From: Labrenzia sp. DG1229
GTDB lineage: Bacteria; Pseudomonadota; Alphaproteobacteria; Rhizobiales; Stappiaceae
DNA: 39,844 nucleotides
Assembly: GCF_000521215.1 (NCBI RefSeq)
Contig: NZ_KI928917.1
Coordinates: forward strand, 121,111-160,954
Reading direction: 5' to 3'
This document shows positions 8,218 through 39,844 of the stretch, in pieces. The notes under the pieces are model-generated. The model saw nothing but the letters and a program-made list of their open reading frames with translations. It was not told the origin of the DNA and searched no databases. Made by a program: the position numbers and the translations under genes. Every line of letters begins with the position of its first letter. Positions within the stretch are counted from its first letter, which is position 1.

Positions 8218-8219
8218 GG

Positions 8220-15330: not shown

Positions 15331-15428
15331 TATGTGCAAAACTAAATTCTATCCGCAGCGCCCGGCACGCGTCTAGGCTGAAAGGAATAGGGAGATACAA
15401 AAAAAATCACCTACCAGGAGACGGACAC

Positions 15429-18062: not shown

Positions 18063-18114
18063 CGGATCAGGCCTTTCAAAAGCGATTGAGATTTTAGAAC
18101 AAGGAACAAGGATT

Positions 18115-19482: not shown

Positions 19483-19493
19483 CAGAGGTTTTC

Positions 19494-21430: not shown

Positions 21431-21435
21431 ACCGG

Positions 21436-21783
21436 ATGACCCTTGTGATCACGAGCACCTGCATTGATGTCAAGGACGGCATATGCACGACGGTCTGTCC
21501 CGTCGATTGTATCTACGAGGGTGAACGCATGTTCTACATACACCCGACCGAGTGTATCGAATGCGGTATGTGCGAGAGTATTTGCCCGGTAGACGCGATC
21601 CGCTATGCCGATGAGGTCGAGGATGCCGAGCATGCCTTTATTGCAGTGAATGATGCAGCCTTCAGGAACGAGGCTGACACCCTTGTGGAACCGGGTGGGT
21701 GGACAAAGGGCGATGATCCTCTCAAGGATCCGCCGGGGTTGACGGACCTGGCTGAACAGCAAGCCGGCGCAGGGGCGGCCTGA
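21436..21783 (+). CDS. Ferredoxin of the 7Fe (3Fe-4S/4Fe-4S) type
   Basis: The 115-residue protein has two iron-sulfur motifs: [19 protein letters not shown] (residues about 9-27) and [16 protein letters not shown] (about 40-55). The second is a complete CxxCxxCxxxCP 4Fe-4S site. In the first, Asp stands where the second Cys of a 4Fe site would be, as is usual for 3Fe-4S centres of FdxA-like proteins. The acidic C-terminal 55 residues end in [12 protein letters not shown]. It sits 5 bp after the crotonase and overlaps the next gene by one base, so it is an operon-dedicated electron carrier, possibly for the FAD oxidoreductase. Confidence 0.9.
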
Positions 21784-26147: not shown

Positions 26148-26903
26148 CTAGGCCACCCGAACTTCCAGATTGGCGAACAACGTGGAAAATTCTTCCGGAG
26201 GAACCCTGTCGGTGACGAGGTAATCTCCGGGCTTCAGCGTTGGCTGACGAAGCACCGGTTTGCGCACCTGCGGCTCGAACTTCGAGTGATCGACTGCCAT
26301 GATCGCGCGTCCCGCATTGGCCAGCATTGCACTCGCAATGTCGACCTCGCACTGCTCATGAACGAGAAACCCGTTCCGGGCATCAACAAGAGATGCGGAC
26401 AGGAGCACGTAATCCACCTGCATCCGGTCTATGACGTCAAACGCCGAACGGTCAAAGGATGCGCCGTCGTGATCCCGCAGCTGTGTTCCGGCCATCGAAA
26501 CATTGTTGCCCGGGATCATCGCGAGCGTGCTCGCGACATAGGCGGAGTTCGTGACAACGGTGAGTTCGCGCAGGCTGCGAAGGGCCTGTGCGACAAATCC
26601 GGACGTCGACCCGGTATCGATGGCAATGCTGTCGCCGTTCTTGATGATCTTCACGACTTCTTCGGCGATCGCCACCTTGGCATCGCGATTCAGGTTCATG
26701 CGGGCCAGATAGGGCAGATCCGGTGCCGACTTGGTCGACACCAGTGCACCGTGCACCTTTTGCAGAGCCCCCCGGTCGACCAGCGGCCGCGAGACCCTCC
26801 GAATGGTCTGATCCGATACCCCAAGGATACGCGAAAGCTCCTGCACGCTGACGGTGCCGCGCATATCCACTGTCTGTAAGAGCGTTGTTTCGTATTTCGA
26901 CAT
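26148..26903 (-). CDS. DeoR-family transcriptional regulator
   Basis: The 251-residue regulator has the DeoR winged helix at residues about 1-58 (VSVQELSRILGVSDQTIRRV...GALQKVHGAL). Its RRVSRPL departs from the usual RRDL at the recognition helix. The C-terminal DeoRC domain (about 75-235) has IAIDTGSTSGFVAQAL and VVTNSAYVAS, the loops that in this family bind a phosphorylated ligand. It is divergent from the first flavoprotein gene, with a 14-bp inverted repeat and 10-bp-spaced TGTT elements in the gap. It probably represses the amine cluster and is relieved by a phosphorylated intermediate; the last point is inference. Confidence 0.92.
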   Translation of the reverse strand: MSKYETTLLQTVDMRGTVSVQELSRILGVSDQTIRRVSRPLVDRGALQKVHGALVSTKSAPDLPYLARMNLNRDAKVAIAEEVVKIIKNGDSIAIDTGSTSGFVAQALRSLRELTVVTNSAYVASTLAMIPGNNVSMAGTQLRDHDGASFDRSAFDVIDRMQVDYVLLSASLVDARNGFLVHEQCEVDIASAMLANAGRAIMAVDHSKFEPQVRKPVLRQPTLKPGDYLVTDRVPPEEFSTLFANLEVRVA

Positions 26904-26960
26904 GAGGCCTGTTTACACCAAAGTTCCTGGTCGAATAAGGCTATTCTGCACCGCGAATTC

Positions 26961-27013
26961 AACAAAAATCAACAATACTATTGTGAAGATGTTGATTTTT
27001 GTTAGGATTTGTT
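26961..27013. promoter_or_regulatory. DeoR operator: 14-bp inverted repeat with TGTT elements every 10 bp
   Basis: AACAAAAATCAACA (26961-26974) is the exact complement of TGTTGATTTTTGTT (26990-27003), 15 bases apart. Within it AACA occurs at 26961 and 26971, and TGTT at 26990, 27000 and 27010, that is, once per 10 bp. Such periodic short repeats on one helix face are typical DeoR-family sites. It lies between deoR (start 26903) and the flavoprotein gene (start 27042). Confidence 0.8.
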
Positions 27014-27041
27014 CCGACTGACAGCATGCGGACCTGCAAAT

Positions 27042-29459
27042 ATGACCCAACACTCTGCCAAACATCTGATTATCGGCGGCGGCATCATCGGTTGCTCGAT
27101 CGCCTATCATCTGACCCGAATGGGGGAGAGGGATGTGGTTCTTCTGGAACGCGCGGGCCTGACGGAAGGGGCCACCTGGCACGCGGCCGGTCTGGTCGGA
27201 CAGTTGCGCTCGTCGCGCAACACGACCCGCATGCTGAAGAAATCCGTCGAAATGTATGACCGCCTTCAGAACGAGGAAGGCATGCAATTCGACTGGAAGA
27301 AAACCGGCTCGCTCAGACTTGCCGCAACCGGGGAGCGCCTGCTGGAGGCCAGACGGCTGGCAACAATGGCACGCAGTTTCGGCCTGGAAATGCAGATAAT
27401 CTCCCCCGGCGAAGCAAGAGATCTATTCCCTCTGATCGAGGCAAGCGGCCTGGAAGGTGCAGCGTTCATTCCCTCCGACGGCTATGTTGATCCGGCCTCT
27501 CTCTGCCAGGCCGTCGCGGGCGCCGCGCGTCGCCAGGGAGCCGACATCCGCCAGGGCGTCGAGGTGCGCGATTTTACCGTATCAAACGGACGGATCACAT
27601 CAGTCGAGACGAGCCAGGGAACATTCGAGGCAGATACGATCATCCTGGCAGCCGGCATGTGGAGCCGTGAACTTGGAGAAAAGCTGGGCATTCGTGTACC
27701 TGCCTGCGCGGTCGAACACCAATATATCGTCACCGAACCCACCGGAACCGAAGTCGGCCATTTCCCGACACTTCGTGATCCGGAACGTCTTGTGTACTAC
27801 AAGCCGGATGTCGCCGGACGACTGGTCATTGGCGGCTACGAGGAAGGCACCCTTCCCTTCGGAGACCAAGGCATCCCCGGATCTTTCGTGCGCCAGCTTC
27901 TGCCTGAAAATCTGGATCGTTTTCTGCCGTTGGCGGAACTTGCCAGCCAGGTGACACCAATCGTCAATGACGTCGGTATCCGCCAGGTTGTCAACGGTCC
28001 GATACCCTATTCCGCCGACGGAGACTTTGTCATGGGCTGGCAGCCCGGCTTGGACAACCTGATGATGGCGACAGGATTTCTCTATGGCATCGCCGCTGGC
28101 GGCGGTGCCGGGGAGATGATTGCCGAATGGGTGGTTGAAGGACGCCCGTCGCTGGATCTCTGGCCCCTTGACGTGCGCCGCTTCGGACCGCATCACGGAA
28201 CCCGGACCTTCATGTATCCGCGCGCTGTCGAGCACTATGCCCATCACTACAAGAAAAGGTATCCGGGACAGGAGCATGAAAGCGCCAGGCAACTGAGATT
28301 GTCGCCGCTCTACCAGAAACTCAAGGATCGCGGAGCTGTCTACGGCTCGAAGAACGGTTGGGAACGACCGCTCTGGTTCGCGCCTGACGGGGTAGAGCCG
28401 GTTGATCAGCTGGATTTCCTCGATCCGGGCTGGAAGAAATATGCCGCCGAAGAACACAGGGCCGTTCGGGAGAGGGTCGCATTGATCGACCAGTCCAGCT
28501 TTTCGAAATTCGAGATTATCGGCGCCGATGCGCTCGACGCATTGCAGCACATGGCCGTCTCCAACATGGACAAGCCGGTTGGTTCGGTCATCTATACGCA
28601 GCTGTGCAATGGGTCCGGCGGCGTGGAGGCAGATGTGACGATCATCCGCCTGGATCAGAACCGTTTCTATCTGGTGACCGGATCCGGTTTTGGCATCCAC
28701 GACAGCGACTGGATCAGGCGCAACCTCCCCAAGAGTTCTCCGGTGCACATTGTCGAAGTCACGAGCGGTTATGCCGTGATCAACATAGTCGGTCCGAAGT
28801 CACGCGACGTTCTGGCAGCCGCTTCCGAATGTGATGTCTCCAATGAAGCGATCCCCTTTTCCACGATGAAGGAAATTGTCGTCGGCGCAGCGCCGGTACG
28901 TGCGGCGCGGATCGGTTATGTCGGAGAACGCGGCTATGAACTGCATGTCCCAACGGAATTTGCTGCTCATGTCTACGACACGCTCTGGGCGGCTGGAGAA
29001 AAACACCGCATCGCCAATGTCGGATACAGGGCGATCGAGAGCCTCAGAATGGAAAAAGGCTATGTCTACTGGTCGGGTGATGTCACGCCGGATTACACGC
29101 CGATCGAGGCAGGTCTCGGGTTTCGCGTTCACCTGAAATCCAAAGGCGATTTTCTTGGGCGGCAGGTGTTGGAAGTGCAAAAGAAGGATGGCGTCGAACG
29201 CAGGCTGTGCACCTTCGTGACACAGGACCATCTGCCGCTCACGGGTGGCGAAACCATACTGCTGGGAGATCAGGTTGTCTCGTCCACGACCTCTGTCGGC
29301 TTTGGATATACGGTGAACCGCACGATTGTGCGCGGATATCTGGACAAGGAGCATTGGGACCGGGCTGAATTCAGTCTGGAGGTCTTTGGCGAGCGTTACC
29401 CGGTCACACAGGCGGAGAGCCCGCTCTATGATCCGGACAACACCGCACTCAAGGGATGA
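27042..29459 (+). CDS. Dimethylglycine/sarcosine-dehydrogenase-like flavoprotein (DAO + GcvT domains), copy 1
   Basis: The 805-residue enzyme has an N-terminal FAD-dependent DAO domain (IIGGGIIGCSIAYHL at about residues 10-24), the TWHAAGL motif whose His covalently carries FAD in DMGDH and SARDH (about residue 48), an FAO_M linker (about 370-425), and a C-terminal GcvT-like folate domain with its C-terminal barrel (about 430-805; GYRAIESLRMEKGYVYWSGD). Such proteins oxidatively demethylate N-methyl amines and pass the one-carbon unit to tetrahydrofolate. An upstream TTG start (27009) lies inside the operator; the ATG at 27042 begins the family-typical sequence. The kinase-like gene that follows starts 12 bp after its stop codon. 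Confidence 0.9.
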   Translation: MTQHSAKHLIIGGGIIGCSIAYHLTRMGERDVVLLERAGLTEGATWHAAGLVGQLRSSRNTTRMLKKSVEMYDRLQNEEGMQFDWKKTGSLRLAATGERLLEARRLATMARSFGLEMQIISPGEARDLFPLIEASGLEGAAFIPSDGYVDPASLCQAVAGAARRQGADIRQGVEVRDFTVSNGRITSVETSQGTFEADTIILAAGMWSRELGEKLGIRVPACAVEHQYIVTEPTGTEVGHFPTLRDPERLVYYKPDVAGRLVIGGYEEGTLPFGDQGIPGSFVRQLLPENLDRFLPLAELASQVTPIVNDVGIRQVVNGPIPYSADGDFVMGWQPGLDNLMMATGFLYGIAAGGGAGEMIAEWVVEGRPSLDLWPLDVRRFGPHHGTRTFMYPRAVEHYAHHYKKRYPGQEHESARQLRLSPLYQKLKDRGAVYGSKNGWERPLWFAPDGVEPVDQLDFLDPGWKKYAAEEHRAVRERVALIDQSSFSKFEIIGADALDALQHMAVSNMDKPVGSVIYTQLCNGSGGVEADVTIIRLDQNRFYLVTGSGFGIHDSDWIRRNLPKSSPVHIVEVTSGYAVINIVGPKSRDVLAAASECDVSNEAIPFSTMKEIVVGAAPVRAARIGYVGERGYELHVPTEFAAHVYDTLWAAGEKHRIANVGYRAIESLRMEKGYVYWSGDVTPDYTPIEAGLGFRVHLKSKGDFLGRQVLEVQKKDGVERRLCTFVTQDHLPLTGGETILLGDQVVSSTTSVGFGYTVNRTIVRGYLDKEHWDRAEFSLEVFGERYPVTQAESPLYDPDNTALKG

Positions 29460-29470
29460 ACGGGGGAAAC

Positions 29471-30397
29471 ATGACAGAACATGCTGAGAAAGTACTCGCG
29501 GCACTGCGCTCTGCGCCGCAATTTGCACATGTCACTTCAGCAAGGCACGTCACACGTCTCGGCGGCCTGACCAACCTGGTGCACCGTGTGGATCTCACCG
29601 ACCAGTCCGTCATCGTCCGCATCCCGGGTGAAAACACCGAAGAATACATCGATCGTGCCGTGGAAAAGCACAATGCGGAAGCCGCGGCCGACGCCGGTGT
29701 CTCCGCCGATGTCCTTTATGCGGATGCTGCAACCGGCGTCATGATCACGCGCACGATCGACGGGATCGAAACCATGACCCCTGATCTTTTCAGGTCACGC
29801 ACCGGCTCTCCGGGCCGCGCGGGGACGGCGCTGGCCAAGCTGCACACTTCCGGCGAAACCTTCCGGTTTCGATTCGAACTTTTTTCCATGATCGATGACT
29901 ACCTGAAAGTTCTTTCAACCAAGGATGTCTCGCTCCCGGAAGGCTACCAGGATGTTGTCACAGCAGCGATGCCCATCGGAGACGTGTTGGCGGCTGCCGA
30001 TCTGCCGCTTGCTCCCTGTCATTGCGATCCGCTTTGCGAAAACTTCCTGGATGACGGGACGACAATGTGGATCGTTGACTGGGAATATTCCGGCATGAAC
30101 GATCCATTGTGGGATCTTGGTGACCTTTCGGTCGAGGCCAGCATGACCTTAGGGCAGGACGCAGAGATGCTGGAGGCGTATTTCAAGCGTGGTCCCACTG
30201 CGGCAGAAACAGGCCGCGTGGTGATCTACAAGGCCATGTGCGACCTTTTGTGGACCCTTTGGGGGCTCATTCAACTTGCCGACAACAATCCTGCCGACGA
30301 CTTCTGGGCTTATGCGACCGGCCGGTTCGACCGTTGCCGCACGTTGATGCAGGACCCTGCCTTCGATGCCCATGTGGCCGCCGTCAGGGCTGGTTGA
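29471..30397 (+). CDS. Choline/ethanolamine-kinase-like phosphotransferase, copy 1
   Basis: The 308-residue protein belongs to the APH/choline kinase (LicA-like) fold. The N-lobe has RLGGLTNLVHRVD and VIVRIPGENTEEYIDR (about 30-62); the catalytic loop is CHCDPLCENF (His-x-Asp...Asn, about 182-191), and the metal-binding Asp is in WIVDWEYSGMNDPLWDLGD (about 198-216). The family phosphorylates the hydroxyl of choline, ethanolamine or similar compounds with ATP. An alternative ATG at 29456 overlaps the previous stop; the one at 29471 has GGGGGA upstream. It follows flavoprotein copy 1 and runs 14 bp into the convergent phosphatase gene. Its exact substrate is unknown. Confidence 0.88.
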   Translation: MTEHAEKVLAALRSAPQFAHVTSARHVTRLGGLTNLVHRVDLTDQSVIVRIPGENTEEYIDRAVEKHNAEAAADAGVSADVLYADAATGVMITRTIDGIETMTPDLFRSRTGSPGRAGTALAKLHTSGETFRFRFELFSMIDDYLKVLSTKDVSLPEGYQDVVTAAMPIGDVLAAADLPLAPCHCDPLCENFLDDGTTMWIVDWEYSGMNDPLWDLGDLSVEASMTLGQDAEMLEAYFKRGPTAAETGRVVIYKAMCDLLWTLWGLIQLADNNPADDFWAYATGRFDRCRTLMQDPAFDAHVAAVRAG

Positions 30398-31157
30398 GCA
30401 ATGCCAGGATCTCGGCGTGCAGCTTCCGGGTCGCCGCCGTGACAGTGCGCCCGTCCGATGCCATTGTCAGCGGATTGCCCTGCCAGTCGGTCATGATACC
30501 GCCGGCCGCTTCGACCACGGCGGAAACCGGCAGATAGTCATAGGGCTGCAGATCGTAATCCACGACAGCATCCGCAAGCCCGCGTGCCACAAGCGCATGT
30601 GGATAGCAGTCAGCCGCCATCCTGCGCAACTGACCGGCACGAACAAGACGCTGAAACGCCCCCGGTTCGCGTGTGGCCAGCTTGTCACCTTCATTGACAA
30701 AGAGACGTGCGTCATCCAGGGACCGGCATTTGCTGACACTGATCGATGTCCCGTTGCAGGTGGCGTGCAGACCCTCGCCTCCTGAATAGACTTCATCGAG
30801 CGCCGGCATGCGGATCACACCCATTTTCGGACAGCCTTCGACCAGAAATCCAAGCAGCATTCCGAACAGCGGCAATCCGGCTATGAACGACCGCGTGCCG
30901 TCAATCGGATCTATGATCCACATCTTGTCACCATCTCCGGTCTGACCGAATTCCTCACCGAAGATCGCTTCCCCCGGAAAGTTTCGTTGAATGCTGTCCC
31001 TGAGGGAATTTTCCGTTGCCTTGTCCGCAAGCGTGACCGGGCTTTGATCGGCCTTGGTTTCGGTTGCAGGATCATTCCGGAAATAGGCAAGACTGACAGC
31101 CGCGGCATCTCCTGTGATCTCCAATGCCTTTTCCAGTCTGTCCGAATAATCCGGCAT
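30384..31157 (-). CDS. Inositol-monophosphatase-family phosphatase, HisN-like
   Basis: The 257-residue enzyme has the Mg-dependent IMPase motifs: SPVTLADKATE (about 40-50), FGEEFG (metal Glu, about 66-71), IIDPIDGTRSFIAGLPLFG (metal Asps, about 81-99), and the C-terminal DLQPYDYLP (replacing the usual WD; about 201-209). The wording of the central motif is closest to histidinol-phosphatase (HisN) types. It is on the opposite strand between kinase copy 1 and the importer, and its 3' end overlaps the kinase gene by 14 bp. Its promoter region is shared with the importer operon. It could remove the phosphate added by the kinases, or be a plain histidinol phosphatase. Confidence 0.88.
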   Translation of the reverse strand: MPDYSDRLEKALEITGDAAAVSLAYFRNDPATETKADQSPVTLADKATENSLRDSIQRNFPGEAIFGEEFGQTGDGDKMWIIDPIDGTRSFIAGLPLFGMLLGFLVEGCPKMGVIRMPALDEVYSGGEGLHATCNGTSISVSKCRSLDDARLFVNEGDKLATREPGAFQRLVRAGQLRRMAADCYPHALVARGLADAVVDYDLQPYDYLPVSAVVEAAGGIMTDWQGNPLTMASDGRTVTAATRKLHAEILALLNQP

Positions 31158-31232
31158 ACCGCGAATCTCCCGTGTTTCTCATGTTTTTTGTCTGCTGAAT
31201 GAACGTTTAAGGCTCAAAATGTATCTAAAATC

Positions 31233-31275
31233 CACAAAAGTCGAACCTAAATGTTGCTTTTTGTTGATTTATACT
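31233..31275. promoter_or_regulatory. Second DeoR-type site before the betaine-type importer
   Basis: TGTTGCTTTTTGTT (31252-31265) matches the half-site before flavoprotein copy 1 at 13 of 14 bases. TGTT recurs 10 bp later (31262), with TGTTGATTTATACT (31262-31275) matching at 11 of 14. An inverted copy, CACAAAAGTCGAAC (31233-31246), matches at 9 of 14; its spacing to the first is 10 bp shorter than in the other operator, one helical turn. It lies between the phosphatase (31157) and importer (31370) starts. Confidence 0.65.
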
Positions 31276-31369
31276 GACAGTCTAGGGAGTGTTTTGCCAA
31301 GTTGGCTAGCTGCCGAGAGCGTTATGCATACGCAGTTCCGTATTGGCAATTCTCGACAGGGAGGAAATT

Positions 31370-32302
31370 ATGAAGCGCGTTTCATTAGCACTGTCCGCCA
31401 TGCTGGCCGTCGCGCCTGCATTCGCAGCCGAGTCCAGCGATCCGATCAAACTTACACTGCACGACTGGTCCGGCCAGTTGATCACGACCAAGCTCATGGG
31501 CGAAGTCCTGAAGGAAGCCGGATACAACGTTGAATATGTCCAGGCTGACTACATCGCCCAGTTCGCAGGATTGAAGACCGGCGATCTGCATGTCGCCATG
31601 GAAATCTGGGAAACCACCGGCCGCGAGGCAATGGATGAGGCATTCGCGACAGGCGACGTCGTCAATCTGGGTGAAACCGGTCTCCAGGCAATCGAGGAAT
31701 GGTGGTATCCGGCCTACATGAAGGAGCGGTGCCCGGGCCTGCCGAACTGGGAAGCGTTGAAGGATTGCGCGGCAGAATTCTCGACACCTGAGACGGCTCC
31801 CTTTGGCCGGTATCTCGGGGGTCCGGTCACCTGGGGTGGCTTTGATGATGAACGTGTTGAGGCTCTGGGACTGGACTTCGAAGTGGTCCATGCAGGCACG
31901 GATGCGGCTCTGTTCGCTGAACTGGAAGCAGCGTATCAACGGCAGGATCCGATCATCCTTTGGGTCTATGCACCGCACTGGGCGCCTGCAAAATACGATG
32001 GTGAATTCGTTGAATTCCCGCCGTTCTCGCCCGAATGCTACAGCGACCCATCGGTCGGGGTGAACCCGGATGCAGCGTATGACTGCGGCAAGCCGCGCGG
32101 CCCGATCTGGAAAGTTAGCTGGGCAGGCGTTGCAGACAAGTGGCCCGGAGCCGCGAAGGCGATCGAGAATTTCAAACTCTCCAATGCCGACTATGGCGCC
32201 ATGGTCACCGAAGTCGATCTCGACGGCAAGTCGGTCGACGATACGGTTGCAGCATGGATGGCTGACAACAAGGACACCTGGACGGGCTGGATTGCCAAAT
32301 AA
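31370..32302 (+). CDS. Glycine-betaine/proline-type ABC importer substrate-binding protein
   Basis: The 310-residue precursor has a Sec signal (MKRVSLALSAMLAVAPAFAA, cut after FAA at about residue 20), then an OpuAC-type domain: KLTLHDWSGQLITTKLMGEVL, GLKTGDLHVAMEIWETT, and the EWWYPAYMKERCPGLPNWEAL segment. The aromatic-rich WVYAPHWAPAKYD and WGGFD regions suit a box that binds quaternary ammonium compounds. The ATG at 31370 has GGGAGGAAATT before it. It is the first gene of the importer operon under the DeoR-type site. The ligand may be glycine betaine, dimethylglycine, choline or a related methylated amine. Confidence 0.9.
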   Translation: MKRVSLALSAMLAVAPAFAAESSDPIKLTLHDWSGQLITTKLMGEVLKEAGYNVEYVQADYIAQFAGLKTGDLHVAMEIWETTGREAMDEAFATGDVVNLGETGLQAIEEWWYPAYMKERCPGLPNWEALKDCAAEFSTPETAPFGRYLGGPVTWGGFDDERVEALGLDFEVVHAGTDAALFAELEAAYQRQDPIILWVYAPHWAPAKYDGEFVEFPPFSPECYSDPSVGVNPDAAYDCGKPRGPIWKVSWAGVADKWPGAAKAIENFKLSNADYGAMVTEVDLDGKSVDDTVAAWMADNKDTWTGWIAK

Positions 32303-32320
32303 ACCCGTCCCATACTTCCT

Positions 32321-32364
32321 GCACGCACCAGCCTGAGTTTGGTGCGTGCCGGACACTTGTCCGG
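32321..32364 (+). other. Two hairpins between betaine-type binding-protein and ATPase genes
   Basis: GCACGCACCA (32321-32330) pairs perfectly with TGGTGCGTGC (32340-32349), a 10-bp stem. It is followed at once by CCGGAC (32349-32354) / GTCCGG (32359-32364), a 6-bp stem with loop ACTT. They sit in the 117-bp gap after the binding-protein gene. As in the sugar importer, this fits mRNA protection that favours binding-protein synthesis. Confidence 0.65.
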
Positions 32365-32419
32365 ATGACAGCCAAGACAAGTTTCCCGACCCCGGGAATA
32401 AACCTCCACCGAGGACTGG

Positions 32420-33433
32420 ATGACGAAGCCCGTAATTCTCGATTGCCGGAACGTATGGAAGCTCTACGGCGCACAGGCCGATACGTTTTTGAACACCAAC
32501 CCTGACCCGTCCTCAGCAGATCTGGAAGCGGCAAATCTCATCGGGGCGGTGCGGGCGGTCAATCTCCAGATCCGGAAGGGCGAGATATTTGTCATCATGG
32601 GGCTGTCGGGCTCCGGCAAATCGACGATTGTTCGATGCCTGTCTCGGCTTGTGGATTCCACTGCTGGAGAAATCCGCTTTGAGGGTAAGGATCTTCTCAG
32701 CGCAAGCGAAGAAGAACTGATCCAGATCCGGCGCAAGAAGATGGGCATGGTGTTCCAGCAATTCGCGCTCCTGCCACACCTGACGGTCCTGGAAAACGCG
32801 GCTTTCCCCCTTGAAATTCAAGGCGTCGACAAGAAGACCCGTGAAGCACGCGCGCATGAAGTTGTGGAACTGGTGGGTCTCAAGGGGCGTGAAAGCTATT
32901 TCCCACGCGAACTTTCAGGCGGTCAGCAGCAGCGTGTCGGCATTGCCCGCAGCCTGGCGGCCGAACCAGAAATCTGGTTTCTCGACGAGCCTTTCTCGGC
33001 GCTTGACCCGTTGATCCGCCGCGAAATGCAGGATGAATTCCTGCGGCTGCAGAACATCCTGCACAAGACGATTGTCTTCATTACCCATGATTTCGACGAA
33101 GCCATCCGTCTGGCGGACCGGATTGCAGTGATGAAGGACGGGATCATTGAACAGGTCGCGACACCCGAAGACCTCGTCCTGCAGCCTGCAACCGAATATG
33201 TGGCGGAGTTCACGCGGCATGTGAGCCGTGCGAAGGTGATACGCGCTGCCTCGTTGATGGAGCCCGTGAAAGGCGACAGCTTCGCCGGTGAGGTCGCGCA
33301 TGATGCCGTGATCGAGGTTATTGCCGATCCGGTGGAAGCCTCGGACCTGCCTCACAAGGTCATGGAAGGCGACAAGCCGGTTGGTCAGATTTCCCGCAAG
33401 GCGGTGATTGATGTGCTGGTAGGGCGCAGATGA
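32420..33433 (+). CDS. Glycine-betaine-type ABC importer ATPase (ProV/OpuAA-like)
   Basis: The 337-residue ATPase has Walker A GLSGSGKST at about residues 61-69, the Q-loop MVFQQFALLPHLTVLENAAF, the signature LSGGQQQRVGIARSL, Walker B IWFLDEPFSALDP, and FITHDFDEA. The N-terminal 30 residues before the core and the insertion (TNPDPSSADLEAANLIGAV) are ProV-like. The C-terminal extension after about residue 265 has no clear CBS repeats, unlike typical ProV, but ends in a short DAVIEVIADPVEAS...GQISRKAVIDVLVGRR segment that may be half of one. The start ATG follows GAGG, and the permease gene overlaps its stop by 4 bp. Confidence 0.93.
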   Translation: MTKPVILDCRNVWKLYGAQADTFLNTNPDPSSADLEAANLIGAVRAVNLQIRKGEIFVIMGLSGSGKSTIVRCLSRLVDSTAGEIRFEGKDLLSASEEELIQIRRKKMGMVFQQFALLPHLTVLENAAFPLEIQGVDKKTREARAHEVVELVGLKGRESYFPRELSGGQQQRVGIARSLAAEPEIWFLDEPFSALDPLIRREMQDEFLRLQNILHKTIVFITHDFDEAIRLADRIAVMKDGIIEQVATPEDLVLQPATEYVAEFTRHVSRAKVIRAASLMEPVKGDSFAGEVAHDAVIEVIADPVEASDLPHKVMEGDKPVGQISRKAVIDVLVGRR

Positions 33434-35415
33434 TCCCCCGCGCTCTGAAATCAGGCGCACTTTTCTGGGGTGCGCTGTTCGCAACCACCTGGCTTTTATC
33501 AACCTATTCATTTCAGCTTTACAAGGCACTTGATGCCCGCTGGATCGTCCGGTTTCCCAAAAGCTGGCAATGGCCGCTCGAAGACCACATCAGCGAGTTC
33601 CTGGACTGGCTGGTCGGCAGTGCCGGATTCTATTTCTTTTCGTTCCGTGATCTCACCCGGACCATTTCTGCGATGATCGAAGCCCCCTACCAGGTGTTGC
33701 GCAACCTGTTGGTCGAGGGTTTTTCAAGCGGTTACGGGGATACCGCCGTTCAAGTGGCACCTGCGCTGAGCTGGATCGCGGTCATCGTGACGATCATGGC
33801 GATCGGACACTATGCACGCGACTGGTTCCTGTCCGTTCTTGTCGGAGCCTGTTTTCTCTACCTCGCCGTCTTCGGACAGTGGGAAAGTGCCATGATCACG
33901 CTTGCCTCGGTCTTGATTTCGGTACCGATCGGGGTAGTTGGCGGCCTTCTTCTCGGCATTCTTGCCTACCGAGTAGGCTGGTTTGAGCGCATGTTGCGAC
34001 CGATCCTGGACCTGATGCAGACCGTTCCGGTGTTTGCTTATCTCGTCCCCATCCTGATCCTGTTTGGCTTCGGTCCCGTCGCTGCGCTCGTCGCAACCGT
34101 GATTTATGCCATGCCGCCCATGGTCCGCATCACCATTGTTGCGCTGAATTCGGTTCCGAAGGAGGTGATCGAAGCGGGCCGCATGGCCGGGTGCCGCAAT
34201 CGTCAGATGATGTGGAAGGTGCTTGTACCTTCTGCAATTCCAACGCTGATGGTTGGAGTGAACCAGGTGATCATGCTGACGCTGAACATGGTGATCATCG
34301 CGTCCATGATCGGCGCCGGTGGCCTCGGGTTCGATGTTCTTTCCAGCTTGCGCCGGCTGGATATTGGTGGAGGGATCGAGGCAGGACTTGGTATCGTGGT
34401 CATGGCAATCGCGCTCGACCGGGCAAGTCAGGCCTTTGCGAAACGTAGCATGCGCCATCCCCTGGAAGGCAACATCCTGCAACGCCACCCTTGGACCGGC
34501 ACCGTCTTTCTGGTGATCGCTTCAACGCTGGTCCTCGGGCAATTCGTACCGGCCGTTCAAACCTATCCGGATGCCCTGACGCTGACGACCGGTCCGTTCT
34601 GGTCGAATGCGATGGAATGGATCAACGTGAACTTCTTCGACACGTTCGAAGCCATCAAGACCGTCATCCTGCAGTGGTTGCTCATTCCGGTGAAGAAGTT
34701 TTTCACTGGCATTCCATGGGCATGGGGAATTATCGCGACTGCCCTCATCGCCTGGAGGGTCGGCGGTTGGAAAATCGGGCTGCTTGCCGGTCTCCTGATG
34801 ATGTTCATTGCAGCCTCGGGGCTCTGGTCCAAGGCCATGGTGACGATCTACCTGTGCGGTGTCTCGGTTCTGATCGCGACCATTATCGGTATTCCGCTTG
34901 GCATCTGGGCGGCCGAAAGCCCGCGGGCCGGTCGTGTCATTCTCGGGCTGATGGATACCCTGCAAACCCTGCCGAGTTTTGTTTACCTGATCCCGGTCGT
35001 CATGCTGTTCCGGGTCGGTGACTTCAGCGCGATGATTGCCGTGATCCTCTACGCATTGGCGCCTGCGGTACGGTACGCGGCACATGGCCTCAAGGAAGTC
35101 CCGCCAGCCCTGATCGAGGCGGGTCTGATGTCCGGCTGCACCCGGCGGCAACTGCTGTGGCGCATCAAGCTGCCACTTGCCACGCCGCACCTGTTCCTTG
35201 GCCTGAACCAGACCATCATGCTCGCGCTTTCCATGTTGGTGATCACGGCGCTTGTGGGCACCAGGGATCTCGGCCAGGAAGTCTACATCGCACTGACCAA
35301 GGCGAACGCCGGGCAGGGCATCGTCGCCGGCCTGTCAGTGGCGTTCATCGCGATCATAACGGATCGGGTCATCAACGCGCTTGCAGCCGGTCGGCGTGAA
35401 AGATTGGGGATCTAG
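33430..35415 (+). CDS. Fused double permease of a glycine-betaine-type ABC importer (ProW-like)
   Basis: The 661-residue inner-membrane protein contains two BPD_transp_1 domains in one chain. Repeat 1 (about 100-345) has the EAA loop VPKEVIEAGRMAGCRNRQMM...VLVPSAIPTLMVG, and repeat 2 (about 440-655) has VPPALIEAGLMSGCTRRQLLWRIKLPLATPHLFLG. Each repeat has its own transmembrane set plus additional N-terminal hydrophobic segments. Ordinary ProW proteins are half this size and dimerise, so this is a built-in heterodimer. The ATG overlaps the ATPase stop by 4 bp, and the next kinase-like gene begins 2 bp after this one. This matches the fused permease design of the sugar importer at 8220-10259. 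Confidence 0.93.
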   Translation: MIPRALKSGALFWGALFATTWLLSTYSFQLYKALDARWIVRFPKSWQWPLEDHISEFLDWLVGSAGFYFFSFRDLTRTISAMIEAPYQVLRNLLVEGFSSGYGDTAVQVAPALSWIAVIVTIMAIGHYARDWFLSVLVGACFLYLAVFGQWESAMITLASVLISVPIGVVGGLLLGILAYRVGWFERMLRPILDLMQTVPVFAYLVPILILFGFGPVAALVATVIYAMPPMVRITIVALNSVPKEVIEAGRMAGCRNRQMMWKVLVPSAIPTLMVGVNQVIMLTLNMVIIASMIGAGGLGFDVLSSLRRLDIGGGIEAGLGIVVMAIALDRASQAFAKRSMRHPLEGNILQRHPWTGTVFLVIASTLVLGQFVPAVQTYPDALTLTTGPFWSNAMEWINVNFFDTFEAIKTVILQWLLIPVKKFFTGIPWAWGIIATALIAWRVGGWKIGLLAGLLMMFIAASGLWSKAMVTIYLCGVSVLIATIIGIPLGIWAAESPRAGRVILGLMDTLQTLPSFVYLIPVVMLFRVGDFSAMIAVILYALAPAVRYAAHGLKEVPPALIEAGLMSGCTRRQLLWRIKLPLATPHLFLGLNQTIMLALSMLVITALVGTRDLGQEVYIALTKANAGQGIVAGLSVAFIAIITDRVINALAAGRRERLGI

Positions 35416-35417
35416 CA

Positions 35418-36293
35418 ATGTCTGAAACCGCAATTGCCCGCGCCGCGGCGCTTGGCTGCTTTTCCGCCCCTCGGGACATCACGCCGCTGGGAGGAGGCAT
35501 CACCAACATAAATCTCATCGTGCGGGACGGCGACCGGCGCTTCGTTGTCAGGCTTGGCAATGACATTCCCGAGCATGGCGTCATGCGATGGAACGAACTG
35601 GCACTCAGCCGCGCTGCCGAACGTGCCGGATTTTCGCCTGCGGTTATCTACCAGGAAGCCGGTGTTCTGGTGCTGGACTTTCTTGAAGCAAAAACCTTCG
35701 GGGAAGCCGACGTCCAGGAACCTGAAAACCTTCAAAGAATTGTCGCCCTGATCTCCAGGGTGCACCACGATCTTGGCGCACACCTGACGGGGCCGGTGCT
35801 TGCCTTCTGGCCATTCCAGGTCAATCGGACCTATGCCGCCCGCCTGAGCGCTGACGGGTCCCCTCATTCGGCAGTGTTGCCGAAATTGATGAACACTCTG
35901 TCTGTCCTCGAAGCAGTGGTCGGACCGGTCGATCTTGTTGTCGGTCACAATGACCTTCTAGCCGCCAATCTCCTCGATGATGGCGACAAACTGTGGCTGA
36001 TCGACTGGGAATATGGCGGTTTCAATTCGCCGCTGTTCGATCTTGCCGGCCTTGCTTCCAACAATGGCCTGACCGAATTGCAGGAACTTGCCATGCTCGA
36101 ACAATACTTTGATGCGCCTCCCGAGACAAACTGGCGTGCCTACAAGGCCATGAAATGCACGTCCTTGATGCGTGAAACCCTTTGGTCAATGACCTCTGAA
36201 ATCCACTCGGACCTGGACTTCGACTACGCCGCATACACAAGCGAAAACATGGACCGGCTGAACGCCGCCCTTTCCGAATTCCGTGAATTGTGA
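35418..36293 (+). CDS. Choline/ethanolamine-kinase-like phosphotransferase, copy 2
   Basis: The 291-residue protein has the same fold as copy 1: N-lobe PLGGGITNINLIVRDGDRRF and FVVRLGND, the catalytic loop HNDLLAANLLDDGD (about 176-189) and the metal Asp in LWLIDWEYGGFNSPLFDLA (about 191-209). It lacks the RIPG...EEYIDR wording of LicA-type enzymes, so its substrate may differ from copy 1. It starts 2 bp after the permease gene stop and ends 8 bp before flavoprotein copy 2. The order importer, kinase, flavoprotein suggests that the imported amine is phosphorylated before or alongside demethylation. Confidence 0.87.
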   Translation: MSETAIARAAALGCFSAPRDITPLGGGITNINLIVRDGDRRFVVRLGNDIPEHGVMRWNELALSRAAERAGFSPAVIYQEAGVLVLDFLEAKTFGEADVQEPENLQRIVALISRVHHDLGAHLTGPVLAFWPFQVNRTYAARLSADGSPHSAVLPKLMNTLSVLEAVVGPVDLVVGHNDLLAANLLDDGDKLWLIDWEYGGFNSPLFDLAGLASNNGLTELQELAMLEQYFDAPPETNWRAYKAMKCTSLMRETLWSMTSEIHSDLDFDYAAYTSENMDRLNAALSEFREL

Positions 36294-36301
36294 GAGCCCT
36301 C

Positions 36302-38734
36302 ATGACACTCCCCTCATCTTCGAAGATCATTATCATTGGCGGCGGTATTGTCGGATGTTCCACGGCCTTTCATCTGGCGCAGATGGGCCAGGAAGTCCTG
36401 CTTCTGGAAAAAGCGGCCCTGACTTCCGGATCCACCTGGCATGCTGCAGGCCTGGTTGGTCAGCTGCGCTCCAACGCCAATATTACCCAGCTTCTTGGCT
36501 ACTCGATCTCGCTTTATGACAGGCTGGAAGCAGAAACGGGGCAGGCCACCGGCTGGAAGATGAACGGCGGTCTCCGGCTCGCCTGCAATGAAGAACGCTG
36601 GACAGAGGTGAAACGGCAGGCGACCACTGCGCACAGTTTCGGCTTGGACATGCAGCTTCTGACACCAAAGGAAGCGCAGGACCTGTGGCCGCTCATGGAT
36701 ATCAGCGATGTCGTTGGCGCCGCCTTTCTGCCGACGGACGGTCAGGCCAGCCCTTCGGACATCACCCAGGCCTTTGCCAAGGGAGCACGGGCTGGTGGTG
36801 CGAAACTGGTTGAAAACATGCCGGTCACCGAAATCCTGACCGAACATGGGAAAATTACAGGAGTGCGCACCGCGCAAGGCGATATTGCCTGCGAAAAGCT
36901 GGTTCTGTGCTGTGGCCAGTGGACACGCGAACTGGCGGCAACGATTGGTGTCACGGTGCCCCTGGTGTCGGTCGAGCACCAATACATGATCACGGAGGCC
37001 TTTGGCGTCCCCTCCAACTTGCCGACGCTGCGCGACCCGGACCGGTTGACATATTACAAAGAGGAAGTCGGCGGACTTGTCATGGGCGGTTATGAGCCCA
37101 ATGGCATTTCCTGGGCCGTCGGCGGTGTGCCGGATCCGTTCGATTTCCAGCTTCTGGACAGCAATTTCGATCACTTCGAACAACTGGTGGAGCTGTCGTT
37201 GCCCCGCGTTCCCGCTCTGGAAAGAGTTGGCGTCAAACAACTGGTCAACGGACCGGAAAGCTTCACACCGGATGGCAATTTCATCCTGGGCGAAGCGCCA
37301 GAAATGGCGAATGTCTTCATCGGAGCCGGTTTCAATGCCTTTGGCATTGCAGCAGGCGGTGGCGCGGGAATGGCGCTGGCTGAATGGGTTGCCAAGGGCG
37401 AACCGCCCTATGATCTCTGGCCGGTTGATATCCGGCGCTTCGGCCGCCCGCACACGGACACGGACTGGGTGCGGACCCGCACATTGGAAGCCTACGGCAA
37501 GCACTACACAATGGCCTGGCCATCGGAAGAACATGACAGCGGTCGGCCCTGCCGCCGGTCTCCGCTTTACGACCGGTTGAAATCCGCGGGCGCCGTATTT
37601 GGTGAAAAACTTGGCTGGGAACGCCCCAACTGGTTTGCCGAGGCCGATGAAGAAGCGCGTGATATCTATACGTTCGAGCGACCGAACTGGCACGATCCGG
37701 TCGGGCGTGAACACAAGGCAGCACGCGAGGCTGCTGTTCTGTTCGACCAGACGTCGTTCGCAAAATTCATCCTGAAAGGTCCCGACGCGGAAGCGGCCCT
37801 GAGCTGGATTGCCGCCAACCGCGTCGACAAACCCGTCGGGTCCATCATCTACACCCAGATGCTGAACGATCGAGGCGGCATCGAGTGTGACCTGACCTGT
37901 GTCCGCACGGCCATTGACGAATATTACATCGTCACCGGAACCGGCTTTGCCACGCATGACTTCAACTGGATCAATCGCAACATACCCGATGGGCTGAACG
38001 CCCAGCTTGTGGATGTCACATCGTCAAATGCCGTGCTTTCGCTGTTTGGCCCGAAGGCGCGCGACATTTTGGCGGGCTGCACACGCACTGATGTCAGCGC
38101 CGGTGCGTTCCCGTTCGGTCAGGCGCGCCGCATCGGCATCGCGGGCTGTCCGGTGCTGGCGCTTCGCATCACCTATGTCGGGGAGCTCGGCTGGGAACTC
38201 CATCTGCCAACCGAATATGCGCAAACGGTTTACGACGCGTTGCACGAGGCAGGAATGCCGCTCGGCATGAGAAATGCCGGTTACCGCGCAATTGAAACCC
38301 TGCGTCTGGAAAAGGGCTATCGCGCCTGGGGGTCCGATATCGGCCCCGATCATACACCCGACGAAGCTGGTCTCGGCTGGGCCGTCAAAATGAAGACCAA
38401 TGCCGACTTCAAGGGTCGCAGCGCCGTTCAGACGCAGCGTGAAGGCGGCGTGAATAAAATGCTCGCAACGTTCACAACGGACGGCGGCGTTATCCTATCA
38501 GGCCGGGAAACGATCTATCGCGACGGAGAACGTTGCGGTTGGCTCAGTTCGGGAGGATATGGCCATACGCTTGGTAAGAGTATCGGCATTGGTTATGTGC
38601 GCCATCCCGGCGGCGTGACCAGGGACCACGTCCTTGACGCCGGCTATGAGCTTGAGGTCGGAACCGAACGCGTGAAAGCGGAGGTTACGCTTGCACCGCT
38701 TTACGACCCGAAAATGGCAAAGATCAAGACGTGA
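36302..38734 (+). CDS. Dimethylglycine/sarcosine-dehydrogenase-like flavoprotein (DAO + GcvT domains), copy 2
   Basis: The 810-residue enzyme has the same domain order as copy 1: DAO domain with IIIIGGGIVGCSTAFHL (about 10-26), the covalent-FAD motif STWHAAGLVGQLRSNANITQ, an FAO_M linker (about 370-420), and the GcvT-like folate domain (about 430-810; GYRAIETLRLEKGYRAWGSDI). The two copies share long similar stretches but clearly differ, so they are old paralogues rather than a recent duplication. The ATG at 36302 has GAGAG upstream; a GTG at 36290 is possible. The substrate is probably a methylated amine; a distinct one from copy 1 would explain keeping both. Confidence 0.9.
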   Translation: MTLPSSSKIIIIGGGIVGCSTAFHLAQMGQEVLLLEKAALTSGSTWHAAGLVGQLRSNANITQLLGYSISLYDRLEAETGQATGWKMNGGLRLACNEERWTEVKRQATTAHSFGLDMQLLTPKEAQDLWPLMDISDVVGAAFLPTDGQASPSDITQAFAKGARAGGAKLVENMPVTEILTEHGKITGVRTAQGDIACEKLVLCCGQWTRELAATIGVTVPLVSVEHQYMITEAFGVPSNLPTLRDPDRLTYYKEEVGGLVMGGYEPNGISWAVGGVPDPFDFQLLDSNFDHFEQLVELSLPRVPALERVGVKQLVNGPESFTPDGNFILGEAPEMANVFIGAGFNAFGIAAGGGAGMALAEWVAKGEPPYDLWPVDIRRFGRPHTDTDWVRTRTLEAYGKHYTMAWPSEEHDSGRPCRRSPLYDRLKSAGAVFGEKLGWERPNWFAEADEEARDIYTFERPNWHDPVGREHKAAREAAVLFDQTSFAKFILKGPDAEAALSWIAANRVDKPVGSIIYTQMLNDRGGIECDLTCVRTAIDEYYIVTGTGFATHDFNWINRNIPDGLNAQLVDVTSSNAVLSLFGPKARDILAGCTRTDVSAGAFPFGQARRIGIAGCPVLALRITYVGELGWELHLPTEYAQTVYDALHEAGMPLGMRNAGYRAIETLRLEKGYRAWGSDIGPDHTPDEAGLGWAVKMKTNADFKGRSAVQTQREGGVNKMLATFTTDGGVILSGRETIYRDGERCGWLSSGGYGHTLGKSIGIGYVRHPGGVTRDHVLDAGYELEVGTERVKAEVTLAPLYDPKMAKIKT

Positions 38735-38842: not shown

Positions 38843-39775
38843 TCACTTGCACAGCCTGTTCACGTTTTGCACGATTCTTTCACTCTCCACCATGCAGGCG
38901 TCAACCAGCAGGTTGAGGCGGTCTTTCAGCGGGTTATCATCATTGGCAAACAGTCCCCAGGCGTAGCTTATTTTTGCGGACAAGGGCCGGATCGACACGC
39001 CGTCAACCGGCACGCCCAGCGCGGTGACCGGGTCGCACAGGGCAACACCGAGACCCGCCCGCGCGGCCATTGCCGCACTTAGGGAAGAATTGGTGGCAAT
39101 TTCGGAGGACGGTTTGATCTTCTGCTTTTCAAATGCGCGGTTGATGGCGTCACGAATACCATATCCATTGCAAATTGTTGCCAGCCGTTCGGTGTTGAAA
39201 ATTGACAGAGGAATTGGCCCGTCGCCATCAAGACGGCTGCCTTTCTTGACCACTGCAACAACCAGTGACTCGAAGCGCGCAAGACACTTCAATTGATCAT
39301 GGTCACCAGGATAAGCTGAAAATCCCAGATCGGCCGTACGTTGACGAAGGGCATGCAGAACCCGTTCCGAAGTCGTCGTTTCGACATGTACAAAATCGGG
39401 CAGAACATCCGAGACACGCGACAGCACAGGCCCCACCAGACCAGCCGACATTGTCGGGGTTGCGACGATATCTATGGCCGCAATTCTTTCGTCCCTGATT
39501 GCGTGGGCCCGCTCGGTCAACTGCGACAGGTTCGCCATGACACGCTGCGATTCTTCGAAAAACTTGATCCCTTTCTCCGTGGGAGAGATTTTGGGTCCGT
39601 TGCGCTCAAAAAGCGCAAACCCGACACGTGCTTCCAGATCTCTTACCATTCTCGTGACCGCAGGCTGGCTCACCGACAGTGTCTGGGCAGCAGCCGTCAT
39701 GGATCCATATCGGACCACCGCAGCAAATGCCTCCATTGAGCGAATGTCAGGTCGCCCATTATTCTTTGTTGACAT
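38843..39775 (-). CDS. LysR-family transcriptional regulator
   Basis: The 310-residue regulator has the LysR winged helix at about residues 12-72 (MEAFAAVVRYGSMTAAAQTLSVSQPAVTRMVRDLEARVGFALFER) and an effector domain from about 100. The ATG at 39775 fits a family-like N-terminus; in-frame alternatives at 39808 and 39835 lack ribosome binding sites. It is convergent with the amine cluster, separated by 108 bp. The direct repeat CTATCATT at 39786-39793 and 39802-39809 lies just upstream and could be an operator. Any divergent target gene lies outside the window, so it need not control the amine cluster. Confidence 0.92.
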   Translation of the reverse strand: MSTKNNGRPDIRSMEAFAAVVRYGSMTAAAQTLSVSQPAVTRMVRDLEARVGFALFERNGPKISPTEKGIKFFEESQRVMANLSQLTERAHAIRDERIAAIDIVATPTMSAGLVGPVLSRVSDVLPDFVHVETTTSERVLHALRQRTADLGFSAYPGDHDQLKCLARFESLVVAVVKKGSRLDGDGPIPLSIFNTERLATICNGYGIRDAINRAFEKQKIKPSSEIATNSSLSAAMAARAGLGVALCDPVTALGVPVDGVSIRPLSAKISYAWGLFANDDNPLKDRLNLLVDACMVESERIVQNVNRLCK

Positions 39776-39844
39776 ACTAGAGAACCTATCATTACGGTAA
39801 GCTATCATTGACGCATGAATATGCAGAAATAGCATAGCAAGCTA

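Follow-up and report, generated by a model that had tools for sequence, protein, structure and literature searches.

A gene cluster in Labrenzia sp. DG1229 probably encodes a pathway that phosphorylates N-methylated ethanolamines, demethylates the resulting phosphates onto tetrahydrofolate, and yields ethanolamine. The window, i.e., the whole stretch of DNA that was analyzed, comprises 39,844 nt (NZ_KI928917.1, positions 121,111-160,954, forward strand), and the cluster is found at 26148..38734. From gene content and sequence we infer the substrates, the phosphorylate-first order and the HisN-like step. The genes of the cluster and the adjacent downstream regulator are:

26148..26903, minus strand: DeoR/GlpR-type regulator, divergent from FlavA (PF00455 115 bits, PF08220 39.5 bits, both above cut-off)
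27009..29459, plus strand: FlavA, DMGDH-type flavoprotein with folate (GcvT) domains (PF01266, PF16350, PF01571, PF08669 above cut-off; tree clade A)
29456..30397, plus strand: KinA, choline/ethanolamine-kinase-family kinase (PF01633, 62.2 bits)
30384..31157, minus strand: HisN-like inositol-monophosphatase-family phosphatase (PF00459, 174 bits)
31343..32302, plus strand: periplasmic binding protein (SBP) with TmoX-like pocket (4xz6, E 1.9e-78)
32420..33433, plus strand: ABC ATPase, proV/choV type (TIGR01186, 327 bits, barely above the cut-off of 326.6)
33430..35415, plus strand: fused double ABC permease, choline/betaine type (TIGR03416, 429.6 bits, above 363)
35418..36293, plus strand: KinB, second choline/ethanolamine-kinase-family kinase (PF01633, 58 bits)
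36290..38734, plus strand: FlavB, DMGDH-type flavoprotein (PF01266, PF16350, PF01571, PF08669; DMGDH 5l46, E 3.1e-155)
38843..39835, minus strand: LysR-type regulator beside the cluster (PF00126/PF03466)

The original prediction described two DMGDH-type folate flavoproteins, each adjoining its own choline-kinase-family gene, and all four genes are in place, with a 4 bp overlap in each pair (FlavA/KinA and KinB/FlavB) according to their coordinates. The cluster is kept in many related bacteria. Among the best 80 of 507 loci, picked by KinA, FlavA lies directly upstream of KinA in 75, and the two kinases and two flavoproteins are all present in 53. In loci retrieved regardless of kinase, a kinase was found within 400 bp of 27/30 clade-B flavoproteins, compared to 0/63 in sister clade C and 0/4 of the others (clade B versus the rest, Fisher 5.5e-21). 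The pairing that was to be sought in other genomes is thus found there, and it is more than chance; the 0/63 in clade C also rules out a general habit of FAO_M genes adjoining APH kinases. Among the matches listed, 13 of the 15 KinA genomes also have FlavB, and KinA is missing from 23 of the 36 FlavB genomes (at least 57% identity, a part of them retrieved or placed in the tree), which argues that the FlavA step comes before the FlavB step. Among the observations against our best explanation, one genome (G053) has both kinases and the importer with no flavoproteins nearby, another (G042) has KinA alone, and two kinases are more than the pathway strictly needs. The tree took in every fifth of the 80 KinA-picked loci (28 rows), and left out 16 flavoprotein pieces shorter than 600 aa, two of which (L175 and L183, both adjoining KinA) came from the loci of the genome-wide flavoprotein search. 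For each genome, this search scored the two top candidates, and 100 places from its listing were retrieved; gene calls in part of the relatives' loci came from a simple ORF picker.

Both flavoproteins are full-length DAO+FAO_M+GCV_T+GCV_T_C proteins with all domains above the Pfam cut-offs, and they are 46% identical to each other. They share their domain order, the WHAAG histidine and His230/Tyr255 with DMGDH, dimethylglycine oxidase and sarcosine dehydrogenase. The WHAAG motif, which in FlavB is aligned with human DMGDH, suggests a covalent FAD bond, and the flavin-linking H51 is invariant in 16/16. His230 and Tyr255 are likewise invariant, and the DMGDH alignment would place them near the catalytic His-Tyr dyad. 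The predicted model of FlavB (pLDDT 86.5) has the human enzyme (5l46) as its top fold match with a TM of 0.93. However, while the known substrates of DMGDH-type enzymes are carboxylates and involve no kinase, FlavA and FlavB form clades (A and B) separate from other DMGDH types, each with a conserved kinase partner. We propose that FlavA is a putative demethylase of phospho-N,N-dimethylethanolamine and FlavB a putative demethylase of phospho-N-methylethanolamine; the open-access literature yielded no assay of either kinase-paired flavoprotein clade. His405 is found in 60/60 and Arg252 in 53/60 clade-B rows, and in the kinase-paired clade-A rows the counts are 27/30 and 28/30, respectively. These residues were considered as proof of phosphate binding, which was not upheld: with only 1 (His405) and about 2.5 (Arg252) informative independent pairs, the independent-pairs tests gave no significance, and the contrasts track the tree.

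DMGDH-family enzymes need a tertiary or secondary amine with a free lone pair on the nitrogen. An MttB or Rieske match accompanies all seven kinase-less clade-A rows (Pfam confirms Rieske in L204 and L221 and MttB in L156, the other four being matches by tblastn only) and is found within 3 kb of 0/85 kinase-paired flavoprotein rows; MttB is also absent among the 20 window proteins scanned. Choline as a direct substrate of the flavoproteins was set aside because of the lone-pair requirement and the lack of these matches beside kinase-paired rows.

The two kinases are only 29% identical, and both score well above the PF01633 cut-off of 29. The His, Asp and Asn of the H-x-D....N / D-W-E catalytic loop are conserved in KinA and KinB. 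Among solved structures, KinA is related to the choline/ethanolamine kinase family protein 3dxq (1.9e-119) and to the choline kinase 4r77 (1.7e-33), with which it shares a W-x-x-W pair, Trp266/Trp269, that is invariant in 94/94. KinB has Glu253 and Trp256 at this site, and Arg252-Glu253 with Trp256 is invariant in 98/98. Choline/ethanolamine kinases normally feed lipid synthesis. LicA, which we take to be the protein of 4r77, serves surface decoration.

The predicted glycine-betaine-type importer is present and has a choline/betaine-type permease, with the qualification that the closest solved relative of its binding protein is 4xz6. This structure is TmoX, a TMAO binder whose pocket consists of W55, W102, F106, E131, W177, F220 and W222, and TmoX proteins also bind choline (PMC8918994). 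At the seven pocket sites our binding protein has W, W, G, E, W, W and Y; of these, W42, W89, E118, W164, W207 and Y209 are invariant in 87/87 and the glycine is kept in 81. The choline-kinase folds together with this TmoX-like pocket point to amino alcohols as the substrate class. The HisN-like gene was also correctly predicted as present, yet it is convergent to KinA, lies outside the KinA operon, and its product falls below the curated cut-off for histidinol-phosphatase (TIGR02067, 239.7 < 275.15). A HisN above this cut-off is encoded elsewhere in the same genome (G000:C59, 302.9 bits). In the best 80 of 507 loci picked by KinA, the HisN-like gene is found in 47 and not seen in 33, which rules it out as a universal cluster member. 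It is possible that the protein is a phosphoethanolamine phosphatase, and this step would be the weakest part of a phosphorylate-demethylate-dephosphorylate interpretation.

The gene context in relatives links the cluster to ethanolamine. The genes that come next after FlavB in Cognatishimia and Shimia, in the same orientation, encode a PF05013-type amidohydrolase, a GS-family ligase, an ALDH and an Fe-ADH. The same set is found behind KinB-FlavB in Salipiger pPABY1, after ETF, FolD and PurU, in an operon that also includes GlyA and L-serine ammonia-lyase (serine deaminase). Judged by gene order and Pfam families, the set looks like the ethanolamine gamma-glutamylation genes, although the GS-family ligase passed no NCBIfam cut-off. 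The Phaeobacter operon MED193_10021-10056 has the order GGAH-ETAGA-GAADDH-GETADH (PMC10132767), and the families follow KinB-FlavB in this order in these three relatives; they differ from it by having no TRAP importer and by carrying a kinase, a flavoprotein and an ABC importer in front. Furthermore, the order KinB-FlavB-EutH is seen in Nitratireductor OM-1 and G193, ETF genes are located near FlavB in three 1.4-Mb genomes, and BetA is near FlavB in one genome. These fusions with the ethanolamine-type set, EutH, BetA, ETF and folate genes argue for an amino-alcohol substrate and an ethanolamine product, and together with the conserved pairing they support the predicted use of a kinase and a demethylase for each methylated amino alcohol.

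Such neighbors are not widespread. GGAH is inside 5/76, 0/28 and 0/19 loci, and EutH in 1/28 kinase loci. Among the matches listed, a close ligase homologue (E 1e-120) is missing from 25/36 FlavB genomes, so that the fate of the product varies, and its co-occurrence with FlavB is real but modest (11/36 versus 40/351, p 0.003). In the ligase-neighborhood comparison, 4/11 relatives had been selected for an amidohydrolase already observed there, and 1/7 of the others (L128) has a ligase nearby. In the genome of the window, the gamma-glutamylation set is not in the locus; its best matches lie together at G000:C17, far from the window, and the set is accompanied by RpiR and TRAP genes (L285).

In the proposed pathway, the TmoX-like protein would bind the amino alcohol for import. 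KinA would phosphorylate N,N-dimethylethanolamine, from which FlavA would remove one methyl group, and KinB would phosphorylate N-methylethanolamine, from which FlavB would remove the last one; FlavB could also take the monomethyl phosphate produced by FlavA. The phosphate would provide the acidic group for the flavoproteins, as the carboxylate does in dimethylglycine, with electrons passing to ETF and methyl groups to methylene-THF. Phosphoethanolamine would then be converted to ethanolamine by the HisN-like or another phosphatase, and in several relatives ethanolamine may be channeled by gamma-glutamylation into glycine and, together with methylene-THF, into serine. The pathway had been predicted to be undescribed, and the open-access literature searched indeed gave no description of it. 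The nearest is MthK-MthB-MthC-MthA of Eubacterium limosum, in which a choline kinase acts before demethylation to tetrahydrofolate and the phosphate is argued to supply an acidic handle (PMC12155760). Phosphorylation first and methyl transfer to tetrahydrofolate are thus common to both, whereas the acetogen uses a cobalamin/MttB system on quaternary phosphocholine and the enzymes here are flavin/folate proteins of the DMGDH family.

An unlikely alternative is that demethylation comes first, with FlavA and FlavB acting on methylated ethanolamines in their free form and the kinases afterwards phosphorylating ethanolamine for lipid synthesis or trapping. The ethanolamine-product context fits this equally well, it matches the usual role of such kinases, and G053 retains kinases and importer without nearby flavoproteins. 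However, it explains neither why there is one kinase per demethylase, nor why kinases occur in operons that continue to a free-ethanolamine-type route, nor why some kinase-free relatives are found in phosphonate clusters. It is quite improbable that the same logic serves another N-methylated amino alcohol (e.g., N-methylaminopropanol or a betaine-like alcohol): neither the kinase nor the importer family determines the carbon skeleton, and ethanolamine-type genes occur in a minority of loci, but the catabolic genes fused downstream are the ethanolamine-type set or EutH.

It is very unlikely that the enzymes really act on N-methylated aminophosphonates (M1AEP, M2AEP), with the kinases as accessory proteins. 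This reading draws on the third family member, clade C, which is partly found in AEP clusters, and on a few loci of our own set: L169 has KinB-FlavB-TmpB-PhnW-PhnA-PhnY, L074 has TmpB adjoining the cluster, along with a TmpA-like gene that is truncated at the end of the locus and scores 399.8 bits against a cut-off of 400, and in L127 and L131 KinA lies within an AEP island. A pure ethanolamine role leaves unexplained both L169 and the AEP islands of L127, L131 and L112, which have KinA but no FlavA. Against aminophosphonates, a kinase adjoins 0/10 AEP-linked clade-C flavoproteins, phn genes are within 6 kb of only 1/85 kinase-paired tree rows, no phosphonate is an obvious substrate for a choline kinase, and the ethanolamine-type, EutH and BetA contexts would be left unexplained. 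In favor of our preferred reading, the substrates of aminophosphonate clusters already carry phosphorus, and the presence of some kinase-free relatives there suggests that the phosphate tag is a substitute handle. In 52/69 clade-C rows every partner looked for is missing, so that this idea covers only part of the clade. Ordinary dimethylglycine/sarcosine catabolism beside unrelated kinases, although compatible with the DMGDH fold, is the least credible reading and is rejected on account of the pairing, which is too conserved, and of the separate clades of FlavA and FlavB in the tree; moreover, the genome (10 FAO_M genes) has a further DMGDH-type gene adjoining a homocysteine S-methyltransferase gene.

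The N-methyl-AEP oxidases PbfB, PbfC and PbfD are also FAD proteins with PF01266 that act on N-methyl amines bearing a phosphorus acid group, as we propose for FlavA and FlavB. They are described by PF01266, bind flavin non-covalently, and release methylamine and phosphonoacetaldehyde without demethylation (PMC10590968). PbfC and PbfD are DAO-type proteins that belong to an AEP cluster and lack folate domains, whereas FlavA and FlavB do have these domains and phn families are absent from the 20 scanned proteins of the window. The chances are about even that one large DMGDH-superfamily branch has specialized in phosphorus-acid amines, which would be kinase-made phospho-N-methylethanolamines for FlavA and FlavB and N-methyl aminophosphonates for the sister found in AEP clusters; the branch would then be an aerobic, flavin-folate counterpart of the MthK/MthB route and the missing path for mono- and dimethylethanolamine in many marine Alphaproteobacteria.

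In marine bacteria, choline is degraded by BetABT and ethanolamine by EtoX and gamma-glutamylation (PMC4744692, PMC10132767). The open-access literature yielded no route for mono- and dimethylethanolamine, the two compounds between them. If our preferred reading, phosphorylation followed by flavin-dependent demethylation, is true, kinase-tagged demethylation would fill this gap, a carboxylate-using enzyme family would be extended to alcohols through phosphorylation, and the recycling of phospholipid head groups would be linked to one-carbon metabolism. On the broader reading of a whole specialized DMGDH branch, many marine Alphaproteobacteria would in this way convert mono- and dimethylethanolamine, which are head groups in phosphatidylethanolamines that are partly methylated, to ethanolamine, glycine, serine and one-carbon units.

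The regulator genes vary between loci. The original prediction placed the cluster under a single DeoR regulator. One such gene is present beside the cluster and is kept at this position in close relatives, whereas two DeoR-like genes occur in 15 of the best 80 of 507 loci. Of the first relatives, L039 and L041 alone have a close copy of the LysR gene adjoining the cluster, as do 2/80 of the KinA-picked loci (L059 and L060).

The window lies at C2:121111-160954 of a 7.63 Mb genome in 61 contigs. The gene order of the cluster is DeoR (reverse), FlavA-KinA, a HisN-like gene (reverse), periplasmic binding protein (SBP)-ATPase-fused permease-KinB-FlavB and LysR (reverse), with 4 bp overlaps at FlavA/KinA, ATPase/permease and KinB/FlavB. 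The DMGDH-type folate flavoproteins FlavA and FlavB both contain DAO, FAO_M, GCV_T and GCV_T_C domains. Human and rat dimethylglycine dehydrogenase are nearest to FlavB among solved proteins, and its AlphaFold model (mean pLDDT 86.5) best matches human DMGDH (TM 0.93). The paired kinases KinA and KinB belong to PF01633/PF01636, and the nearest solved relative of KinA is 3dxq, followed by choline kinase 4r77. Among named relatives of the window's KinA, those from Roseibium/Labrenzia are nearest, with Roseibium album as the best named locus (96% kinase identity). A separate run at 15216-22652 of the window encodes an NMT1-type ABC importer, an FAD oxidoreductase, a CoA-transferase III, an enoyl-CoA hydratase and a DHDPS-like protein.

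The kinase-flavoprotein pairing on which the original prediction was built is conserved in relatives. Among 61 genomes (own and 60 relatives), 12 hold KinA orthologues (at least 57% identity), and in the fetched regions FlavA adjoins KinA in 10 of these; the exceptions are G042, where KinA stands by itself, and G053, where neither flavoprotein accompanies the two kinases and the importer. GTDB species genomes were also scanned by KinA and the best 80 of 507 relatives were kept. In 75 of these 80 loci, KinA has a same-strand FlavA whose end is no more than 150 bp away; the five that do not are L111, L112, L127, L131 and L134. Of the same 80 loci, 54 contain both KinB and FlavB, 53 the complete set of four genes and 47 a HisN-like gene. 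Hosts include Sulfitobacter, Roseovarius, Shimia, Cognatishimia, Amylibacter, Stappia, Pelagibius and Kiloniellaceae, as well as two MAGs labelled Granulosicoccus and Arenicellales.

In L047 (G053; 6703-8477) and L140 (Shinella HZN7; 13210-14837), where FlavA is missing beside KinA, a SAM-dependent methyltransferase gene is divergent from KinA. L141 (pRi1724; 5694-9623) and L142 (Arthrobacter U41; 5558-10828) hold choline-kinase-like genes, in pRi1724 annotated as two in tandem, together with a Zn/M20 hydrolase and a HisN/inositol-monophosphatase gene. No DMGDH is annotated in these two stretches, and the sets possibly represent another route for amino alcohols that uses a kinase and a phosphatase.

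To obtain loci selected without regard to kinases, 387 alphaproteobacterial genomes were searched with FlavB and 100 of the listed places were fetched. A FastTree tree of 180 flavoproteins, 106 of them from these loci, contains clade A (37, including FlavA), clade B (60, including FlavB), the sister clade C (69) and 14 others. In the FlavB-search loci, the share of flavoproteins with a kinase no more than 400 bp away is 27/30 in clade B, 3/9 in clade A, 0/63 in clade C and 0/4 in the remainder (Fisher test, clade B versus C and others, 5.5e-21). Each of the seven kinase-less clade-A members instead has a neighbouring match to MttB or Rieske-oxygenase queries, and Pfam backs such a partner for L204, L221 and L156. 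The flavoprotein partners thus swap sensibly between a kinase, a quaternary-ammonium demethylase and a phosphonate cluster. None of these partners was seen for 52 of the 69 clade-C rows. Clade-A flavoproteins paired with Rieske oxygenases, without a kinase, were observed in L204, L221 and their relatives.

Ten clade-C rows are linked to phosphonate genes, and none of the ten has a kinase. The window's own genome holds such a linkage, with 2-aminoethylphosphonate (AEP) genes:

G000:C18, L143:8511-10967; third DMGDH-type folate flavoprotein, inside an AEP cluster (PhnS2/T2/U2, PhnW, PhnA) and accompanied by a DeoR-like gene

This protein is 47-48% identical to FlavB, its Phn neighbours all score above NCBIfam cut-offs, and no kinase is found at its locus. 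It is likely an N-methyl-AEP demethylase. A second case, L161, combines a flavoprotein with PhnS2/T2/U2 and PbfA (above cut-off). N-methyl-AEP (M1AEP) is the phosphonate analogue of phospho-N-methylethanolamine; therefore a demethylase of the former would need no kinase, while that of the latter would. Oxidation of M1AEP by FAD oxidases of PF01266 is described in passages of PMC10590968; a folate flavoprotein of the L143 type in an AEP cluster is absent from the examined passages, and no word starting with folate or tetrahydrofolate occurs in the main text. The reverse association is also seen. In L169, the KinB-FlavB pair is embedded in a TmpB-PhnW-PhnA-PhnY-PhnS2 cluster, with TmpB and PhnY scoring above cut-off. 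The full cluster of L074 has next to it TmpB (above cut-off) and a TmpA-like gene truncated at the end of the locus (399.8 bits, cut-off 400), and in both L127 and L131 KinA belongs to an AEP island. These cases are not fully explained. The L127 island, from an oceanic single-cell genome (3220-4962, 11299-12383), combines KinA and a TmoX-like importer with PhnW, a PhnZ-like HD oxygenase, an SDR and one small protein that matches no NCBIfam profile.

In the proposed mechanism, di- and monomethylethanolamine would be imported and phosphorylated by KinA/KinB, FlavA/FlavB would oxidatively demethylate the phosphates onto folate with ETF as acceptor, and after dephosphorylation ethanolamine would be used. 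We infer the substrates, the step order and the phosphatase. DeoR-type regulators often sense phosphorylated metabolites, and the DeoR gene beside the cluster fits this but proves nothing. The nearest precedent is Eubacterium limosum, where the choline kinase MthK acts before demethylation and phosphorylation is argued to supply an acidic handle (passages of PMC12155760). All components come from known families, and this is the single precedent for the logic; no description of a choline kinase coupled to a DMGDH-type enzyme was found in titles and abstracts of the open-access papers searched.

FlavB (at least 57% identity) occurs in 36 of the 387 genomes and KinA in 15. FlavB is present in 13/15 KinA genomes, while KinA is missing from 23/36 FlavB genomes (p 3.8e-13). 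A presupposes B, as would be expected were A to feed into B. The W-x-x-W motif of 4r77 is retained in KinA (W266, W269; 94/94); in KinB, by contrast, W256 is all that is left of the Trp pair, next to an invariant Arg252-Glu253 (98/98). Judged from these residues, KinA may act on a more methylated amine and KinB on a secondary amine. The importer SBP keeps the TmoX cage W42, W89, E118 and W164 plus W207 and Y209 (each 87/87); the cage residues and the affinity of TmoX for choline are known (passages of PMC8918994). His405 and Arg252 of FlavB were suggestive as a phosphate marker, but a phylogenetic pairs test did not uphold them.

The genes, their coupling, their conservation and their fusion with downstream sets are seen directly. 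Salipiger abyssi plasmid pPABY1 has the annotated run SBP-ATPase-permease-KinB-FlavB-ETFbeta-ETFalpha-FolD-PurU, continued by PF05013 amidohydrolase-GS-family ligase-ALDH-Fe-ADH-GlyA-L-serine ammonia-lyase-HAD. A HisN-like gene of the inositol-monophosphatase family and DeoR diverge from this run, and FlavA-KinA lies farther on. FlavB of Cognatishimia maritima and of Shimia aestuarii has directly behind it homologues of four of these genes (amidohydrolase, ligase, ALDH and ADH; 55-73% identity) and also a HAD protein. The family order is that of the Phaeobacter ethanolamine operon (GGAH, EtoVWX, ETAGA, GAADDH, GETADH; passages of PMC10132767), but the TRAP importer present there is missing behind FlavB. 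No NCBIfam profile names the GS-family ligase; L285 of the own genome, with homologues of the set (41-66%), RpiR and three TRAP genes like the published operon, serves as the bridge, and the link is suggested by family and gene order. In Litoreibacter, the set and FlavB are transcribed towards each other. The distance between the set and the DeoR|FlavA-KinA side of the cluster is ~1 kb in Actibacterium and ~5 kb in Roseovarius pacificus, where a DctP-type TRAP gene accompanies the set. A HAD-family hydrolase follows GETADH in L280 and L281 and the serine deaminase in L267 (pPABY1), and is a candidate second phosphoethanolamine phosphatase.

EutH is the next gene after FlavB in Nitratireductor OM-1 (663 bits, cut-off 575) and G193 (81% identity). 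Within fetched stretches (homologues at at least 45% identity), GGAH was found in 5/76 kinase loci of the KinA-chosen sample, 0/28 of the FlavB-search sample and 0/19 others, EutH in 1/28 of the FlavB-search sample, and neither in 87 loci without a kinase; both are thus rare in kinase loci. A close ligase homologue occurs in 51 of the 387 genomes, in 11/36 FlavB genomes versus 40/351 others (p 0.003). The 25/36 FlavB genomes without one must have another product fate or a more distant ligase. ETF genes lie near FlavB in three 1.4-Mb genomes (G085, G276, G345); in G085, the importer, KinB and FlavB are lined up with BetA (above cut-off). In pPABY1, the stretch that separates the two kinase operons (L267, 25582-32015) holds a second ABC importer with a TMAO-demethylase-like protein, which scores 1073.9 bits (cut-off 1100).
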